Of a DNA stretch of 64,000 nucleotides, positions 1 through 58,876 are shown in pieces. The position numbers and the translations under genes are program-made. Where the stretch lies: the NCBI RefSeq assembly GCF_002257665.1, contig NZ_MQWB01000001.1, forward strand, positions 82,834 to 146,833. Reading direction: 5' to 3'. Source of the stretch: Rubricoccus marinus. GTDB lineage: Bacteria > Bacteroidota > Rhodothermia > Rhodothermales > Rubricoccaceae. Position 1 is the stretch's first letter. Every line of letters begins with the position of its first letter. A model generated the notes under the pieces. That model did not search any database. It saw nothing but the letters and a program-made list of their open reading frames with translations, and had not been told where the DNA came from.

Positions 1-175
1 GTAGGCGGAGCCAGCGGAGCGAAGAAATCGGGCGGGGCCGTACTCGATGCCACCAGATCGCCGCGCTTCGCTCGCGATGGCACCGGTTGCGCGATGACAC
101 CGGTTGGGTGGCGCCAGAGGCCTCTGGAGGGGCGCTCTTACGCATCACGCAGCACGCATTACGTAGTACGCATCA
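1..175. other. Gene-free end with dispersed repeats
   Basis: I see no convincing gene here. Bases 57-87 carry a copy of a dispersed repeat (core CGCCGCGCTTCGCTCGCGAT) that recurs at 21309-21338. Bases 112-127 carry two face-to-face copies of the CGCCAGAGG motif, and 141-175 is a heptamer array. A fixX-like ferredoxin gene, expected near fixC, is not visible before the window edge. Confidence 0.6.
141..175. repeat. Heptamer tandem array, CGCATCA family
   Basis: Five consecutive 7-base units follow CGCATCA with one or two changes each: CGCATCA, CGCAGCA, CGCATTA, CGTAGTA, CGCATCA. The array ends exactly next to the complement of the stop codon of the flavoprotein gene at 176. The same family recurs at 13888-13908. 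Confidence 0.8.
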
Positions 176-2230: not shown

Positions 2231-3205
2231 CTACGACGTGGCGGCGGCCTGCCGGCGCTTGCGGTCGAACGTGCGCTGCTGGTCCGTGCCGGGCGGCACC
2301 TCGTACGGGTGCGCGGGCAGGTCCACCACGCGGAGCGAAGGCTTGTCTCCGTTCCACTCGAAGCGGGCCGGCGGTCCGTCTACGGGCTCCTCCCCATCGC
2401 CGAGGACGAGAACCGTGGTGCCCTGCTCAAGGACGCGGCCGTTGGCACTCGCGAGGCCTCTGGCGCCGGTTCCGGCGGTGGTGCGCCACGGCTCCGCCCA
2501 GTCGTAGATCCACTTCGCGTCATCGGTGATCAGGCGCACACAGCCGTGGCTGGCGGGCTCGCCGATGGGCATCCGGTACTGGTGGACGTGGATGCCGCGC
2601 TCGTGGTAGAAGTTGAACACCCAGCGCATGCGCCAGCGCTCACCGGGAGGCGAGAGCGTGGAGATGCGGTCCAACTCTTTCCAGTTGAAATTGTAACGGC
2701 CCGCCGGCGTCTGGCTGTCGATGGCGCCCGTGTTGACGAGGCCCCAGCGCTCCAGGTCGCCGTTCTCGTACGCAGCCCACGCCTGCACGCCCTTGTCGAT
2801 GATGAACAGCTTGTCGAACTCGGCCGCGCCCTCGTAGCGGCGCGGAAACGGCGCGTAGGCGCGCGGGTCCAGCCCGAGATGCGTCGGGAGCACGAGCGTA
2901 TCGCCAATGCTGAGGTCGTTGAGGTAGATGCGGTTGAGGAACTGCACCATCGCGAGGCGCTCCTTGCCCAGGGACTGGTCGCCGTCGCCCGCGGCCCGGT
3001 AGAGGTCGGCACGCGCGAAAATGGAGTTGCCCGTCTCGTGGTCCAGCACGTAGGCGTTCCACCCCACCTCGGGGATCTCGGCGAGCTCCTGACGGACGCC
3101 GTAGAGCAGTTCACCGATCTCTTCCTGATCGTAGAGACGGCCGGGCGATTGGGCCACGGCGCCAGAGGCGAGGCAGAGGAGCAGAGCAGCGAACGCGGTG
3201 CGCAT
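2231..3205 (-). CDS. L,D-transpeptidase, YkuD family
   Basis: This is a secreted 324-residue L,D-transpeptidase. Such enzymes join meso-diaminopimelate side chains of peptidoglycan or attach proteins to it in the periplasm. Residues 1-19 form a signal peptide ending near AVAQS. The catalytic signature SHGCVRL is present with the nucleophilic cysteine at about residue 222, preceded by the family histidine in a HVHQYRMPIG segment. The chosen ATG at 3205 puts the signal peptide at the N-terminus; the upstream in-frame extension has no signal character. A LysM-like segment (GDTLVLPTHLG) lies before the catalytic domain. The exact substrate cannot be told from sequence. Confidence 0.88.
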   Translation of the reverse strand: MRTAFAALLLCLASGAVAQSPGRLYDQEEIGELLYGVRQELAEIPEVGWNAYVLDHETGNSIFARADLYRAAGDGDQSLGKERLAMVQFLNRIYLNDLSIGDTLVLPTHLGLDPRAYAPFPRRYEGAAEFDKLFIIDKGVQAWAAYENGDLERWGLVNTGAIDSQTPAGRYNFNWKELDRISTLSPPGERWRMRWVFNFYHERGIHVHQYRMPIGEPASHGCVRLITDDAKWIYDWAEPWRTTAGTGARGLASANGRVLEQGTTVLVLGDGEEPVDGPPARFEWNGDKPSLRVVDLPAHPYEVPPGTDQQRTFDRKRRQAAATS

Positions 3206-3409
3206 CACGAGGGGAAGGGGAGGTGGGAGCCGAAGAAACGCAGACCGCCCGCCGTTGGGTGCCAAGGCCGGCACTTCTTCACAGCCTGGCACCGAAAACC
3301 GGCCTCTGGCGTCCATAGGCGTCCCTGATGGTTTGGTGAGGGCGCGCCCTGGACTGCGCTCAAGGCGCGGGAATGCGTCTCTGGAGGCTCTCCATCCCCT
3401 CGCCAGAGG

Positions 3410-12579: not shown

Positions 12580-12644
12580 GGTACGGGGTACTGGGTACGA
12601 GGTCAGAGTCGCAGCCGTACCGCGTACCCTGTACCTCGTACCAC
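12580..12644. repeat. Inverted heptamer arrays between pheS and pheT
   Basis: Units GGTACGG, GGTACTG, GGTACGA (12580-12600) are followed by GTAC-centred units at exactly 7-base spacing (GTAC at 12617, 12624, 12631 and 12638). The second arm is the reverse complement of the first in pattern, so a long hairpin can form in the pheS-pheT message. The array almost touches the pheS stop and the pheT start. Confidence 0.75.
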
Positions 12645-12645
12645 G

Positions 12646-13698
12646 TCAGAACTGACGGAGGAAGCGCTGGTCGTTCTCGTAGTAGAGCCGGATGTCGTCC
12701 ACGTCGTAGCGGATCTGCGCCATGCGCTCGACGCCCATGCCGAAGGCGTAGCCGGTGTACCGCTCGCTGTCGATGCCGACGGAGTCCAGCACGTTGGGGT
12801 CCACCATGCCGCAGCCGAGGATCTCGAGCCAGCGCCCGCCGCCGGGGAGAGACTCGTCCTCCCACCACACGTCGACCTCGGCCGAGGGCTCGGTGAAGGG
12901 GAAGAAGCTGGGGCGGAAGCGCATCTTCGGTTCGCCGCCGAAAAACGCCCGCGCGAAGGCGAAGATGACCGCCTTGAGGTCTGCGAAGCTCACGCCCTCA
13001 TCGATCACCAGGCCCTCCACCTGGTGGAACATGAAGTAGCTCTTGAAGCTCACCGCCTCGTTGCGGAACACGCGGCCGGGCGCGATCACGCGGATGGGCG
13101 GCCCACCGCCGGAGCGCACGGCCTCCTCCATCACGCGCACCTGGACCGGCGACGTGTGCGTGCGCAGCACGATGCCACGTCCCTCTGGCGCCGGCGGCTC
13201 CAGGAAGAACGTGTCCTGCATGTCGCGCGCCGGGTGGTTCGCCGGGAAGTTGAGCGCGCTGAAGTTGTGCCAGTCGTCCTCGATCTCGGGGCCTCTGGCG
13301 ACCGCGAAGCCGAACTGCGCGAAGATGTCCTGGATGGACTCCAGCGTCTGGGTCAGCGGGTGCAGCGAGCCCGGCGCCAGAGGCGCGGGGATGCGGCCGG
13401 GCAGCGTGAGGTCGAGGTCGGTCGCCTCGGCACTCGCGCCAGAGGCCGCGCTCTGCATCTCGTCCAGGCGCGCCTCGGCGCTCTGCCGCAGCGCGTTGAG
13501 CTTCTGGCCGACGGCACGGCGGGCCTCGGGCGGCACGCTGCCGATCTTGCCGAAGAGCGCCGTCACGGCGCCAGCTTTGCGCCCGAGAAAGCGGACGCGG
13601 AAGGCTTCGGCCTCGTCGCCAGAGGCGAGCGGCGCGGCGTCGATCTCAGCCTGGAGGGCGTCGATCTCGGCGTCGAGAGGGGTGGCGGTGTCGGACAT
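12646..13698 (-). CDS. pheS: Phenylalanyl-tRNA synthetase alpha subunit
   Basis: This 350-residue protein is the catalytic alpha chain of phenylalanyl-tRNA synthetase. An N-terminal coiled-coil arm (residues 1-100) precedes the class II core. Motif 2 is visible in [19 protein letters not shown] and motif 3 in [15 protein letters not shown]. The ATG at 13698 (MSDTATP) is preferred because the upstream in-frame extension is made of iterated motif and heptamer sequence. The gene precedes pheT and follows rplT, with its own terminator region before it. It is a conserved housekeeping block. Confidence 0.95.
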
Positions 13699-13754: not shown

Positions 13755-13887
13755 CTCCGACGGGCGGGGTCGCATCCTGAAACGCAACCCGCTCCGCCCG
13801 CTGGCGCGGGCGCCTCCGCAAGGGAAGGCATCGAGGCGTGGGGTCGAGTCTCGCTCTGCTACGCGTGCGGCGCCAGAGGCTCCCGTA

Positions 13888-13908
13888 CGCATCACGCATT
13901 ACGCATCT
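13888..13908. repeat. Heptamer array, CGCATCA family
   Basis: Three 7-base units, CGCATCA, CGCATTA and CGCATCT, repeat the family seen at 141-175, 13.7 kb away. They lie just downstream of the rplT terminator. Confidence 0.75.
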
Positions 13909-33560: not shown

Positions 33561-36503
33561 ATGTCGACCCTTTTCCGCCTCGTACTCCTCCTCGCTCTGG
33601 CCTCCGGCGCCAGCGGCGCGCTCGCGCAAAGCGTGGACGTGACGTTCCGCTTTCTCCCGGACCTGACGGCGCCCGCGCTCTCGCCGGTGGTGCGGGCCTT
33701 CGTGCCGGGCACGATGCCGGAAGGGACCGTCAACGACTGGGGCCCCAACAATGGCGGCGTGATCGCCCCGACCGCGCCGTCGCTGATGACGTACGACGCG
33801 GCGCTGAACGAGTACCGCTACACGATCTCCCTCACGCCCGGCGACGGGCCTGTGGCCGGCGGCGGCCACGCGTACAAGATCCACTACCACCGGAACGCCA
33901 GCGGCACCGAGTACACCTGGATTACGGACCCGCTTGGCAGCGAGACGACCGGCGGCAACAACGACTCCGTGGTCCGGGTCTCGGACCCTATGGCCTTCCA
34001 ACTCGCGCGCGAGCAGGACGCCAGCGGCCAGATCGTCGCCGTCTCCGTCGGGCTGTTCGGGACCGAGGCGTTCCCCTCCATCTCGTTCACGGTGAACGAG
34101 ACGACGTACACGAGCGGCATTGAGGACACCGGCGACGGGATCTACCGATTGGAGCTTCCCACGCCCGTTCCGCCCGGCTCCTTTTTTCGCGTGGACGCGG
34201 CCGACGCCTCTGGCGACGCGGTAAGCGCCCAAGTCGGCACGCTTCCGCCCGACGTGGTGGACGCGCCCGTCCCCGCAGGCATCGAGGACGGCATCACGCA
34301 TTCCGACGCCGGTGACGGCACGACGTGGCTCGTCCTCCGTGCGCCGGCCAAGAGCTACGTCTACGCCCTCGGCGACTTCAACGACTGGACGGTGGGCGAC
34401 GACGCCCTCATGTTCCGCGACACGACCGACCCGCGCGGCACGCGCTGGTGGATCCGCCTCGACGGGCTCACGCTTGGCGAGGCCTACGACTTCCAGTACC
34501 TCGTCGACGGCACGATCCGCGTCGCCGATCCGTACTCGCCCATCGTGCTCTACCCCGGCGAGGCCGGCTACCCTAGCGGGCAGACCGACTTCGCCGTCGG
34601 CCGCTTTACCGCCGGCGGGAGCGCGTTCGCGTGGACCGACGACGACTTCGAGGCGCCCACGCAAGAGGACCTGGTGATCTACGAGCTCCTCGTCCGCGAC
34701 TTCCTCCGCGATCACTCGTTCGTCTCCCTCACCGACACGCTCGACTACCTCCAGCGCCTCGGCGTCAACGCCATCGAGCTCATGCCCGTCGCCGAGTTTG
34801 ACGGCGACGAATCGTGGGGCTACAACCCGGCCTTCCACCTCGCGCTGGACAAGTATTACGGCACGCCCGAGCAGTTCAAGACCTTTGTCAACGAGGCCCA
34901 CGCCAGAGGCATCGCGGTCTTTCTCGACGTGGTGTACAACCACGCGACGGGCCAAAGCCCGCTCATCCGGCTCTACAACTCCGGCGGCTTTTCCGGCCCG
35001 AGCGCCAGCAGCCCGTACGCCAACGTCACCGCCACGCACCCCTTCAACGTCTTCAACGACCTCAACCACGAGAGCGAGCTGACGCAGATCTGGCTGGACA
35101 AAGCCAACCGCTGGTGGGTGGAGGAATACCACGTGGACGGCTACCGCTTCGACCTCACGGCGGGGTTCATGCAGACGGGCGACTTCTACAACTACAACCC
35201 CGGCCGCATCGCGCTCCTCACGCGCATGATGGACGCGCTCTGGGACGAGCACCCGGAAACGACGGTGATCTTGGAGCACCTCATCAACAGCGCGCAGGAG
35301 TGGCGCGATCTCGCCCTGTTCCAGCAAGACGAGGGCCGCCCCGGCGCCATGCTGTGGCACAAGATGGACCGCGAGTACGCCCAGAGCGCGATGGGCTACC
35401 CCACCGCGACGGACTTCCCGAGCACGCTGGAAGAGACCTACCCGCCCCGCTGGGTGGGAGGCCAGGTGCCTCTGGCGAACGCCGTGACGTACATGGAGAG
35501 CCACGACGAGCAGTGGACCATGTGGCGCAACCGCAACTTTGGCAACGCCTCTGGCGCGTACAACATCCGCGACCTCCACACGGCGCTGGACCGCCAGAAG
35601 CTCGTCGGCGCGTTTTTCCTGACCGTGCCCGGTCCGCGGATGATCTGGCAGTTCGGTGAGCTGGGCTACGGCTACGGCCCCGGCGAGTGCCTGGTCAACG
35701 GGACCTACCCCGGCGAGTGCGCTCCGGGCACGCCGGACCGCGTCAACGACAAGCCGATCCGCTGGGACTACTGGGAAGAAGGTGTCTCACCCTTCGGCGG
35801 CAGCTTCCAGGGCGCGCTCACGCCCGCGACGGACCGCGAGCGTGAGCTTCGCCAGAAGCTGTACGGCACGTGGGCGGCGCTTCTCGGCCTCCGCGCCGAC
35901 TACGCCATCTTCAGCGACCCCGAGACGGAGTTCCGGGCCGAGCTGGGCCGCACGGCCTCGCGCTGGATCACGCTCTCGCTTCCGACCGCCCCCGAGGGCG
36001 AGCCGACGGAAGTCGTCATCGTCGGCAACTTCGGCGTCACCAACGCCTTCGTCGCGCCCGAGTGGCCCAGCACCGGCACCTGGTACGACTTCTTCGCCGA
36101 CACCGAGCAAGAGGTGGCCTTCCCGCAGTTCACGCAGGAGCTCCTCCCCGGCGAGTTCCGCGTCTACACAAACGTGGACGTGCCCTCGCCCGACCCTGGC
36201 CTCATCACGGTCGCGAACGAGGACACCGAGCCTCTGGCGCCAGAGGCCTTCGGCCTCCGCGCGTTCCCCAACCCCGCCTCTGGCGCACTGGGCGTGGACG
36301 TAATGGTGCAGGACGCCGGCGACCTCACGGTCGAGCTCTTCGACGTGCTCGGCCGCCGCGTCGCAACGCTCCACGAGGGCGCGGCCCCGGCCGGGCGCCA
36401 GAGGCTGGACGTGGACGTGAGCGGCGTGCCCGCGGGCGTCTACGTGGTGCGCGCGGCCTCTGGCGGGACGGCGGCGACGGCGCGGATCACGGTGGCGCGA
36501 TGA
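33561..36503 (+). CDS. Exported multidomain GH13 alpha-amylase with T9SS tail
   Basis: This 980-residue secreted enzyme starts at ATG 33561 with a signal peptide (1-23). A beta-sandwich starch-binding-like module (about 24-210) is followed by a CBM48-like module (YVYALGDFNDW, about residue 268) and a GH13 barrel. Conserved sites are DVVYNHATG, YRFDLTAGF with nucleophile Asp about 529, ILEHL with Glu about 571, and ESHDEQ about 647. The tail (AFPNPASGALGV to RITVAR) is a T9SS sorting domain. The order CBM48-GH13 recalls glycogen-branching and debranching enzymes, so pure amylase activity is not certain. The stop overlaps the next start as ATGA. A full palindrome at 36230 writes PLAPEA into the linker before the tail. 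Confidence 0.88.
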   Translation: MSTLFRLVLLLALASGASGALAQSVDVTFRFLPDLTAPALSPVVRAFVPGTMPEGTVNDWGPNNGGVIAPTAPSLMTYDAALNEYRYTISLTPGDGPVAGGGHAYKIHYHRNASGTEYTWITDPLGSETTGGNNDSVVRVSDPMAFQLAREQDASGQIVAVSVGLFGTEAFPSISFTVNETTYTSGIEDTGDGIYRLELPTPVPPGSFFRVDAADASGDAVSAQVGTLPPDVVDAPVPAGIEDGITHSDAGDGTTWLVLRAPAKSYVYALGDFNDWTVGDDALMFRDTTDPRGTRWWIRLDGLTLGEAYDFQYLVDGTIRVADPYSPIVLYPGEAGYPSGQTDFAVGRFTAGGSAFAWTDDDFEAPTQEDLVIYELLVRDFLRDHSFVSLTDTLDYLQRLGVNAIELMPVAEFDGDESWGYNPAFHLALDKYYGTPEQFKTFVNEAHARGIAVFLDVVYNHATGQSPLIRLYNSGGFSGPSASSPYANVTATHPFNVFNDLNHESELTQIWLDKANRWWVEEYHVDGYRFDLTAGFMQTGDFYNYNPGRIALLTRMMDALWDEHPETTVILEHLINSAQEWRDLALFQQDEGRPGAMLWHKMDREYAQSAMGYPTATDFPSTLEETYPPRWVGGQVPLANAVTYMESHDEQWTMWRNRNFGNASGAYNIRDLHTALDRQKLVGAFFLTVPGPRMIWQFGELGYGYGPGECLVNGTYPGECAPGTPDRVNDKPIRWDYWEEGVSPFGGSFQGALTPATDRERELRQKLYGTWAALLGLRADYAIFSDPETEFRAELGRTASRWITLSLPTAPEGEPTEVVIVGNFGVTNAFVAPEWPSTGTWYDFFADTEQEVAFPQFTQELLPGEFRVYTNVDVPSPDPGLITVANEDTEPLAPEAFGLRAFPNPASGALGVDVMVQDAGDLTVELFDVLGRRVATLHEGAAPAGRQRLDVDVSGVPAGVYVVRAASGGTAATARITVAR

Positions 36504-36958
36504 CGGGGGACGGGGCCAGTGGCGAGTGGCCAGTGGGGGCATCGGACGATGCGCCAGAGGTCGTGTATCCGCTTGGAGCGGAGCACGGCGTCGTGGCTGA
36601 AGGTCAGATCCGCAGCTACCGCGATCTGCGCGTGTGGCAGGAAGGGATGAACCTCGCGGAAGCGGTGTATGCCGCCACGCAGTCTTTCCCTCCAGACGAG
36701 CGGTTCGGCCTGACCTCGCAGTTGCGCCGCGCTTCCGTCTCCGTCCCGTCCAACATCGCCGAGGGGTGGGGGAGAGGCGCAACAGGCGAGTACAAGCAGT
36801 TCCTTCGCTACGCCCGCGCGTCGCTCCGCGAGATCGAGACGCAATGGCTTCTCGCGGGCCGCCTCGGCTTTCTCGCGCCAGAGGCCGTCGCGGACCTCGA
36901 ACAGCGCGCCGACCGCCTCGGCCGCCAACTCCTCTCGCTCATGCAGGCGCTCCGATGA
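36500..36958 (+). CDS. Four-helix-bundle (S23/IVP-type) protein
   Basis: This 152-residue protein belongs to the four-helix-bundle family first seen in 23S rRNA intervening sequences. Signs are IRSYRDLRVWQEGM, LTSQLRRASVSVPSNIAEGWGRG and FLRYARASLREIETQ. Its biochemical role is unknown; relatives are found with rRNA insertions and, as Avd, with diversity-generating retroelements. It overlaps both neighbours (ATGA at 36500 and at 36955) yet has nothing to do with starch. The first about 37 residues lack family similarity and include heptamer repeat sequence; a GTG at 36593 could be the ancestral start. Inverted heptamer arrays flank it. Confidence 0.85.
   Translation: MTGDGASGEWPVGASDDAPEVVYPLGAEHGVVAEGQIRSYRDLRVWQEGMNLAEAVYAATQSFPPDERFGLTSQLRRASVSVPSNIAEGWGRGATGEYKQFLRYARASLREIETQWLLAGRLGFLAPEAVADLEQRADRLGRQLLSLMQALR
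36516..36536 (+). repeat. Heptamer array CCAGTGG, left arm
   Basis: Three units, CCAGTGG, CGAGTGG and CCAGTGG, lie in the start region of the four-helix-bundle gene. The reverse-complement family lies at 36985-37012. Confidence 0.75.
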
Positions 36959-38817
36959 TTCGATCCCTCGGCCTCGCCCTTCTGCTACTGGCCACTGCCT
37001 ACTCCCCACTGGCCCAGCCCGTGCCCCCCGACTGGGCGCAGGGCGCCGTGTGGTACCAGATCTTCCCCGAGCGCTTCCGCAACGGCGACCCGAGCAACGA
37101 TCCGACCTGGGCCTCGCTGGACTTCAACGACCGCGCCGACAGCAGCCTCTGGCGCCCGAGCCCGTGGACCGGCGACTGGTACGCGCGCGACGCGTGGGAG
37201 GAGGACCTCGGCGACGACTTCTACGAGGACGGCGTCTTTTTCCGCCGCTACGGCGGCGACCTCCAGGGCGTGCTGGAGAAGGTGGACTACATCGCCGATC
37301 TCGGCGTCGACGTCGTCTACTTCAACCCCGTTTTCCACGCCGCGAGCCTCCACAAGTACGACCCGACAAGCTTCCATCACGTCGACCCCTACTTCGGGCC
37401 GGACCCCGACGGCGACATCGCGCTGGCCGCTGGCGAAGACCCCGGCGATCCGGCGACGTGGGTCTGGACGCGCGCCGACTCGCTCTTTCTCGACGTGGTC
37501 CGCGCCTTCCACGCCAGAGGCGTCCGCGTGGTCTTGGACGGCGTGTTCAACCACACCGGCACGCGCTTCTGGGCCTTCCAAGACGTGCGCGAGAACGGTC
37601 GCGCCAGCCGCTACGCCGACTGGTACAACGTGACGGCGTGGGACGACCCCGCCACGCCCCAGGACGAGTTCGACTGGGAAGGCTGGTGGGGCTTCAAGCC
37701 TCTGGCCGTCCTGGCAGACGAGCCCGATCTGCGACCCGGTGTGCGCGAGCACATCTTTGACATCACGCGCCGCTGGATGGACCCCGACGGCGACGGCGAC
37801 CCGAGCGACGGCATCGACGGGTGGCGGCTGGACGTGGCCGACGAAGTCCCCGCTGGCTTCTGGCGCGACTGGAACGCGCACGTCCGCAGTCTCAACCCCG
37901 AGGCCGTGACCGTCGGCGAGATCTGGAGCCCTGCGGCGCACTTCGCGAAAGAGACCGAGTTCACGACCGTGATGGGCTACAGCGCCTTCGCGATCCCCGT
38001 CGAGCAGTCCATCTTGGACGGCCGCGTGCCTCTGGCGACGTTCGCGGACACGCTCACCGCGCGCCAGCGCGCCTACCCCGAGGCCACGCGCCACGCGATC
38101 CTCACGCTCATGGGCTCGCACGACACCGAGCGTCTGGCGTCGATGATCGTCAACGCGCCGCTGGGTACGCACTTCGACCAGGGCTCCAACCCGCGTCAGG
38201 ACGAGCGCTACGCCGTTCGCGCGCCGAACGCCCGCGAGCGCGAGATCCAGCGCATGGTCGTCGCCCTCCAGATGACCGCCCGCGGCGCGCCGACGATCTA
38301 CTACGGCGACGAGGCCGGCATTTGGGGCGCCGACGACCCCGACGACCGGAAGCCGTTCCCCTGGCCTGACCTCGACATGGCGCCAGAGGCGACCGACCCG
38401 CTCGGCCGCGCCCGCACGCCCGATCCCGTCGCCTTCGACAGCAGCCTCTGGCGCTTCCACCGCGAGGCCATCGCGCTGCGCAACGAATGGGACGTGCTCC
38501 GCCGCGGCGACCAGCGCTTTCTCACGACCGACGACAGCACGGGCACGCTCGCCTTTGAGCGCACGCTGGGCACCCAGCGGCTCATCGTCGCGCTCAACCG
38601 CTCCGATGCGTCGCAGCTGATCGGGATTCCAGGGGAAACCGGCCCGCTCGTGCCGATCTTCGCCTCGCGCGGGGCCGTGCGGGACATCCCCGCGCTCGTG
38701 CAGGTGATCTACGAGGACGACCGCACCGAACTCGGCTACCGCGTGCCCGCCCGCTCGCTCGTCGTCTACCGCCCCGTTCGCGACGCCGACATCCGCCCGC
38801 GAGGGCTCGACGAATGA
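36955..38817 (+). CDS. Exported GH13 cyclomaltodextrinase/neopullulanase-like enzyme
   Basis: This 620-residue GH13 enzyme has a signal peptide (1-20) and lacks a T9SS tail, so a periplasmic site is likely. The N-terminal WYQIFPERFRNGDPSND and a YFNPVFHAASLHKYDP segment are typical of neopullulanase/cyclomaltodextrinase-type enzymes. Conserved sites are DGVFNHTG, GWRLDVADE with nucleophile Asp about 292, VGEIWS with Glu about 322 and GSHDTERL near 388. It would trim oligosaccharides before MalE binds them. The signal-peptide codons 11-20 are made of a heptamer array. The ATG overlaps the upstream stop, and its own stop overlaps the malE start, so translation is coupled. Confidence 0.88.
   Translation: MIRSLGLALLLLATAYSPLAQPVPPDWAQGAVWYQIFPERFRNGDPSNDPTWASLDFNDRADSSLWRPSPWTGDWYARDAWEEDLGDDFYEDGVFFRRYGGDLQGVLEKVDYIADLGVDVVYFNPVFHAASLHKYDPTSFHHVDPYFGPDPDGDIALAAGEDPGDPATWVWTRADSLFLDVVRAFHARGVRVVLDGVFNHTGTRFWAFQDVRENGRASRYADWYNVTAWDDPATPQDEFDWEGWWGFKPLAVLADEPDLRPGVREHIFDITRRWMDPDGDGDPSDGIDGWRLDVADEVPAGFWRDWNAHVRSLNPEAVTVGEIWSPAAHFAKETEFTTVMGYSAFAIPVEQSILDGRVPLATFADTLTARQRAYPEATRHAILTLMGSHDTERLASMIVNAPLGTHFDQGSNPRQDERYAVRAPNAREREIQRMVVALQMTARGAPTIYYGDEAGIWGADDPDDRKPFPWPDLDMAPEATDPLGRARTPDPVAFDSSLWRFHREAIALRNEWDVLRRGDQRFLTTDDSTGTLAFERTLGTQRLIVALNRSDASQLIGIPGETGPLVPIFASRGAVRDIPALVQVIYEDDRTELGYRVPARSLVVYRPVRDADIRPRGLDE
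36985..37012 (-). repeat. Heptamer array CCACTGG, right arm
   Basis: Four units, CTACTGG, CCACTGC, CTACTCC and CCACTGG, are the reverse complement of the array at 36516-36536. They encode part of the signal peptide of the GH13 enzyme. Confidence 0.75.
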
Positions 38818-53700: not shown

Positions 53701-53720
53701 TCGGGCCGACTTGATTCCGA

Positions 53721-53762
53721 GATCCGAGATCCGAGATCCGAGATCCGAGATCCGAGATCCGA
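53721..53762. repeat. Perfect GATCCGA tandem array
   Basis: Six perfect copies of the heptamer GATCCGA run from 53721 to 53762, flanked by degenerate units (GATTCCGA before, GATCGGC after). The array ends seven bases from the moxR stop codon. Confidence 0.95.
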
Positions 53763-53768
53763 GATCGG

Positions 53769-58704: not shown

Positions 58705-58746
58705 ATTGAGGGATGAGGGATGAGGGATGAGGGATGAGGGATGAGG
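58705..58746. repeat. GATGAGG tandem array
   Basis: Five perfect GATGAGG heptamers (58712-58746) follow one degenerate unit (ATTGAGG). Confidence 0.95.
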
Positions 58747-58876
58747 GGGGCGCCGGTCGATTTGTTCCGCCAGAGGTCCCGTTCGCCATCCGCATCCCGC
58801 CCCGCCTCTGGCGCTGCGCCCGTCCTCCCGTAGGAGCGTGTCGCACATGTCCGGTTCTAAGGATTCTTCTGGGCCT

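Follow-up and report, generated by a model that had tools for sequence, protein, structure and literature searches.

In the analyzed 64,000-nucleotide window of the Rubricoccus marinus genome (contig NZ_MQWB01000001.1; source genome of 4.43 Mb), a gene for a four-helix-bundle protein is located between two amylase genes and is bracketed by inverted arrays of a heptamer. All three genes lie on the + strand. The upstream host gene (33564..36503) encodes a member of the GH13 alpha-amylase family whose C-terminus carries a type IX secretion tail (Pfam PF00128, PF18962), the four-helix gene (36500..36958) encodes a protein of 152 aa, and the downstream host gene encodes a second GH13 alpha-amylase, amylase 2 (36955..38817; PF00128, E=1e-46). 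Both start/stop junctions are ATGA. At 36500-36503 the stop codon of the upstream amylase (36501-36503) overlaps the start of the four-helix gene at 36500, and at 36955-36958 the stop codon of the four-helix gene (36956-36958) overlaps the start of amylase 2 at 36955. A sequence-only reading had described this arrangement as a mobile cassette that preserves translation of the operon; its account of the genes and junctions was confirmed and its coordinates for the heptamer arrays were exact.

The left arm (36514..36536, + strand) consists of three CCAGTGG-type heptamers, CCAGTGG (36516-36522), CGAGTGG (36523-36529) and CCAGTGG (36530-36536), and lies within the codons for the N-terminus of the four-helix protein. 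The right arm (36985-37012, + strand) lies within the signal-peptide codons of amylase 2 and is formed by four heptamers that are the reverse complement of the left arm, CTACTGG (36985-36991), CCACTGC (36992-36998), CTACTCC (36999-37005) and CCACTGG (37006-37012). Tandem Repeats Finder identified the left array as a tandem 7-bp unit (period 7, 3.3 copies), similar to the short tandemly repeated repetitive (STRR) sequences of cyanobacteria. As a single word CCAGTGG is not rare, with 5 copies in the window compared to 7.7 expected; it is the tandem and inverted layout that is non-random, as the best downstream inverted match of the left array scored 17, compared to a maximum of 11 among 2,940 stretches of 600 bp drawn at random from the window. 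When the two arms were connected by an A6 loop, a fold z of -5.0 was obtained, and the complete 541-nt transcript gave a z of -2.3. The inverted arm match and the joined fold correspond to the stem-forming terminal inverted repeats of an intervening sequence (IVS). No known RNA family could be identified in this region by Rfam matching.

The four-helix protein belongs to PF05635/TIGR02436 (PF05635 E=6e-35), the family of the 23S rRNA intervening-sequence protein (IVP, also named S23p), and the target thus carries the open reading frame (ORF) typical of an IVS, even though it is located between amylase genes and not within a 23S rRNA gene. XCC0516 (2GSC) was the sole solved relative detected by sequence. 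AlphaFold predicted a confident four-helix bundle that matched 2GSC, 2RLD and, more distantly, Avd of the diversity-generating retroelements; for Avd the TM-score by target length was 0.80-0.85, while the Foldseek E-values were weak (0.05 and above). PF05635 proteins are under purifying selection, with a median dN/dS of 0.25 and values of mostly 0.07-0.25 for close pairs. A phage origin was rejected, as no phage match was obtained.

In relatives, the amylase pair was found in both states. In four genomes (G005, G006, G008 and G047) the orthologue of the upstream amylase directly adjoins amylase 2 and both the four-helix gene and the arrays are absent, whereas both are present in G000 and G001. 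Neither the gene without arrays nor arrays without the gene was seen at this site, in agreement with the earlier claim that they form one cassette. In the sister genome G001 the gene occupies the same site as the target and shares the ATGA start context, and its arms are inverted as well, but they are of the AAGGAGG/AAAGAGG type and not CCAGTGG.

The survey for further cassettes covered 114 order-level genomes, loci of a named scan across several phyla, and plasmids. The source genome contains five PF05635 genes, four of which have inverted heptamer arms with a different heptamer in each; these are located at the target, an ACT-DUF711 junction, trpG-trpD and a metal-transporter-like operon. 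For the 132 loci at which long flanks were available, arrays of period 7 were found within 200 bp of the PF05635 gene 49 times on the left and 52 times on the right, compared to 1 and 0 at a distance of 200-400 bp. Period 8 was also enriched (17 and 16); aside from period 14, a multiple of 7, no further period was clearly enriched, with counts of about 0-4. When left flanks were compared with reverse-complemented right flanks, 122 of 145 loci reached a score of at least 16, while 14 were expected from cross-paired flanks and 35 direct-orientation matches reached this score. The pattern spans at least seven phyla (Bacteroidota, Planctomycetota, Chloroflexota, Kiritimatiellae/Lentisphaerae, Acidobacteriota, Saccharibacteria and Alphaproteobacteria), some of these phylum-level groups being represented by one to three loci only. 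Heptamer or octamer repeats were present on at least one side of the gene at all 12 plasmid loci, most of which are cyanobacterial. Heptamer-flanked copies of the gene, for which the sequence-only reading had proposed to look, exist at numerous unrelated sites, in the source genome as well as in many phyla. It is very improbable that the arrays are ordinary slippage repeats with a four-helix gene between them by chance, an explanation to which the lone heptamer arrays of the source genome would conform. The arrays are enriched within 200 bp of PF05635 and absent beyond, the arms match in inverted orientation and in a locus-specific manner, and about five positions of the unit are fixed while the other two vary, unlike plain slippage copies. 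Octamer instead of heptamer arms were observed in several Planctomycetota and some other loci (L109, L115, L145, L150). A Calothrix pair on two plasmids was considered as a recent jump and rejected, as what the two plasmids share is a larger, integrase-containing element.

Four cassettes are located inside protein-coding genes, two in a DnaE-type polymerase gene of Planctomycetota (L145, L150) and two in the HATPase domain of a histidine kinase of Chloroflexi (L107, L112). At each of these loci the host is read in the +2 frame of the four-helix gene, and this frame remains open across the arrays and the gene for a total of 1,094-1,466 codons, while the +1 frame of the gene contains 8-16 stops; two overlapping reading frames are thus kept open (around 2960-3350). 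Synonymous shuffles gave probabilities of 0.039, 0.086, 0.001 and 0.009 for the lack of stops, values which are not fully independent because the loci form two homologous pairs. The open host frame suggests that these cassettes are translated straight through and not spliced. That the +2 frame of the four-helix gene is intrinsically poor in stop codons was dropped as an explanation: stops occurred at 0.81 of the expected number, but the value was nearly equal in neighbour genes (0.87-0.88), and in GC-rich genes it was 0.72 compared to 0.69. Two additional loci with open frames (L012, L029) were not counted, since their frames are GC-rich and contain no recognizable host protein. In Azospirillum lipoferum, a PF05635 member flanked by GACAGAG/GACGGAT inverted heptamers interrupts the 23S rRNA gene (L341, around 2000-2450), and this IVS has a fold z of -8.7. 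For the Coxiella IVS, GACAGAT heptamers upstream of the S23p ORF, inverted repeats at the termini and cleavage by RNase III have been reported (PMC4990558). The anatomy of these two elements suggests that rRNA intervening sequences and the cassettes in operons are of the same kind.

The most probable interpretation, to which a probability of about 0.6 is assigned, is that the target is an IVS-type element: an S23p/IVP gene between inverted arrays of a locus-specific heptamer, lodged in the amylase junction. This interpretation is based on the observed anatomy, on the occupied and empty sites at conserved gene pairs, on the recurrence of the cassette at further operon junctions, within reading frames and in a 23S rRNA gene, on the purifying selection and on the concerted change of both arms. 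In the transcript the arms would pair as a stem, holding the four-helix mRNA in the loop, and the element would persist through its neutrality to host expression. At operon junctions this neutrality could be achieved by stop/start overlaps or a tight fit, inside genes by an open host frame, and in rRNA through excision by RNase III at the stem. The protein, given its Avd-like fold and the IVS precedent, may bind the heptamer stem or repeats and thereby aid the persistence or spread of the element or its arms.

In total, 23 orthologous insertion sites were identified, with names derived from the flanking protein sequences. The biggest group, sdhA-sdhB, comprises 27 Bacteroidota loci; trpG-trpD, gmk-nadD, fcl-gmd and efflux operons are among the others. 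The space between neighbouring cistrons is taken up by the cassette, with median spacings of ∼4 nt from the upstream stop to the left array, ∼5 nt from the four-helix stop to the right array and ∼15 nt from the right array to the next start. Another possible explanation is an autoregulated operon switch: binding of the protein to its own heptamer stem, within the polycistronic mRNA, would control translation or stability of the host operon, and the cassette would be a domesticated regulator. The tight spacing of stop, array and next start, the co-orientation of both neighbours with the gene in 22 of the 23 site groups, and the vertical inheritance and purifying selection of the gene all fit this explanation. 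It is nevertheless considered unlikely, because the hosts have no function in common (sdhAB, trpGD, amylases, kinases, dnaE), gene-less hairpins occur and antisense placements are found in cyanobacteria. Plasmid copies of the gene lie at the junctions cas6-cas4, cas10-cmr3 and sufA-like/sufB and, in antisense orientation, within an nrdB-nrdA pair, the cas6/cas4 and cas10/cmr3 placements being those of the cyanobacterial plasmid loci L337, L338 and L339. The FLSHclust study reported the 23S rRNA IVP among CRISPR-linked proteins (PMC10910872). The cas-operon placements suggest insertion of the four-helix gene and not an association with CRISPR, and they may be the reason for this listing.

The evolution of the arms was followed at orthologous sites. 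The median arm similarity was 0.67 within a locus, 0.33 between orthologous arms of the same side and 0.19 between unrelated arms. At the trpG-trpD, DUF711 and pheS-pheT sites the heptamer differs by species, and the arms match within each. In gene trees most site groups are clades; the trpG-trpD four-helix proteins of Rubricoccaceae form a single clade (support 99/87), and L098, from another family, represents an independent insertion at the same site. The within-locus match despite the species differences, together with the clade-forming genes, indicates that both arms change together under a resident gene, and the cassettes, once inserted, are mostly inherited vertically. One fixed heptamer as the end of the element was rejected, since the unit varies with locus and species. 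Of the claim that the cassette is bounded by heptamers, the inverted bracketing is correct, but the heptamer is not a constant sequence and differs even between insertions at the same site.

Heptamer arrays also occur without the gene. In the window, inverted GGTACGG arms with a short loop are located at the pheS-pheT junction (12580..12646, - strand; RNA fold z=-4.1), and arrays without an inverted partner are found at 53716..53766 (TCCGAGA x7) and 58707..58747 (TGAGGGA x6); two further solo arrays are of the ACGCATC type (140..170 and 13887..13906). The pheS-pheT hairpin is present in most of nine Rubricoccaceae, each with its own heptamer, and is absent from G005, which has one weak PF05635 gene. 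No relative with a four-helix gene at that junction was found that would identify these hairpins as relics of lost cassettes. In 864 kb of the source genome, 26 strong period-7 arrays were detected, compared to 0-1 for other periods, and roughly ten inverted pairs that enclose a short loop (12-150 bp) but no gene are dispersed, while all inverted pairs with a gap of 300-600 bp contain a four-helix gene. Near the end of L208 (G000:C1:1478262-1478466), GGGGACT arrays in inverted orientation enclose a loop of ∼150 bp without a four-helix gene, apparently within or beside a gene for a GTPase-type protein. Among related genomes, no heptamer array was found in 858 kb of 17 genomes without PF05635, compared to 62 in 1,448 kb of 26 genomes with PF05635 (per-genome association, Fisher p = 0.0085, kinship ignored); about half of the well-sampled PF05635-bearing genomes had no heptamer array in 40-56 kb. 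Dispersed arrays resembled the cassette heptamers of their own genome in 36% of cases, compared to 16% for the cassette heptamers of relatives (P = 0.008; P = 0.06 at a looser threshold), which hints at an action in trans.

The main rival explanation is that the element moves at the DNA level. The heptamer arrays would then be ends like those of transposons, folding into hairpins when the DNA is single-stranded, and the protein would help a host or foreign enzyme to move both cassettes and gene-less hairpins, like REPINs that are moved in trans by RAYT transposases. The dispersed gene-less pairs, the restriction of wide-gap pairs to four-helix genes, the resemblance of arrays to the cassettes of their own genome, their absence from genomes without PF05635 and the independent trpG-trpD insertion of L098 all argue for it. 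However, no catalytic enzyme is present, the protein being a plain helical bundle, and the end sequence is not fixed. The mostly monophyletic site groups imply that movement is rare, and the species-specific pheS-pheT heptamers would require repeated precise insertions. DNA-level movement is regarded as rather unlikely, and the IVS-type element is preferred.

Several observations weigh against an IVS-type element. One PF05635 gene of the source genome (L004) has no arms, and cassettes are outnumbered there by gene-less and solo arrays; the cassette claim made earlier has to be amended in that the majority of heptamer arrays of this genome enclose no gene. Unit order is mostly not colinear between the arms (5/51 loci at p≤0.05), by which exact palindrome copying was rejected and which indicates that exact pairing is not the conserved property. 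If RNase III cleaved an mRNA within a host ORF, the encoded protein would be disrupted, and processing can thus not be universal. The target and G001 proteins are not sisters in the tree, but a sister placement was not rejected (approximately unbiased test, p = 0.24). Finally, neither insertion or excision of the element nor cleavage of RNA was observed; for the proposed mobile cassette, preservation of translation is supported by the filled intercistronic gaps and the four open host frames, while actual movement was not seen.

IVS elements have been described before, as have S23p proteins and heptamer repeats. The 23S rRNA IVS with an S23p ORF (Leptospira, Coxiella, Brucella) resembles the target in protein family, terminal inverted repeats and size, and the Coxiella and Azospirillum members also contain heptamer repeats. 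It differs in that the target is located in a protein-coding operon and has a locus-specific arm heptamer that changes between species, and in that RNase III excision was demonstrated in Coxiella (PMC4990558). The cyanobacterial STRR, Xanthomonas GGGAATC and Beggiatoaceae TAACTGA heptanucleotide repeats are tandem heptamers in gene junctions, as here, and those of Xanthomonas often form inverted pairs (PMC4692102; PMC4679880), but here inverted arrays of a locus-specific unit flank a four-helix gene; no mention of an S23p, four-helix or IVP gene was found in these two papers. REPIN/RAYT systems (PMC3116915) share with the target the gene-less hairpins of inverted short repeats, a repeat-flanked gene copy and a possible action in trans. 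They differ in that the flanked gene is a RAYT tyrosine transposase and not a four-helix bundle, and in that one palindrome family takes the place of tandem heptamers of many sequences. The fold shared with Avd is not accompanied by a reverse transcriptase in the cassette, the immediate neighbours of which are GH13 amylases. In the open-access literature no paper linking inverted heptamer arrays to the PF05635 family was found except the Coxiella rRNA note, most subscription papers being outside the search.

An extension of the IVS-type interpretation can be put forward tentatively and with considerable doubt. The heptamer repeats of cyanobacteria, Xanthomonas, Beggiatoaceae and others and the rRNA IVS would be one system, in which the four-helix protein recognizes a motif with a 7-nt period and creates or rewrites inverted arms in cis and in trans, resulting in a transposase-free mobile element whose ends change yet match. 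The heptamer repeats (cyanobacteria, Xanthomonas, Bacteroidota) and the origin of the 23S rRNA IVS are both unexplained, and the link drawn in this analysis offers a common protein for them. It also accounts for PF05635 genes in unrelated operons (sdhAB, trpGD, cas), where they may be mistaken for functional partners. A striking case of insertion with the host frame kept open is provided by the in-frame cassettes of the dnaE-like and histidine kinase genes.

Apart from the heptamers, the 9-mer GCCAGAGGC was found in 222 copies in the window, compared to 1.6 expected, in both coding and noncoding DNA. It often occurs paired as GCCTCTGGCGCCAGAGGC, and it represents a HIP1-like hyper-abundant motif that is apparently unrelated to the heptamer arrays.
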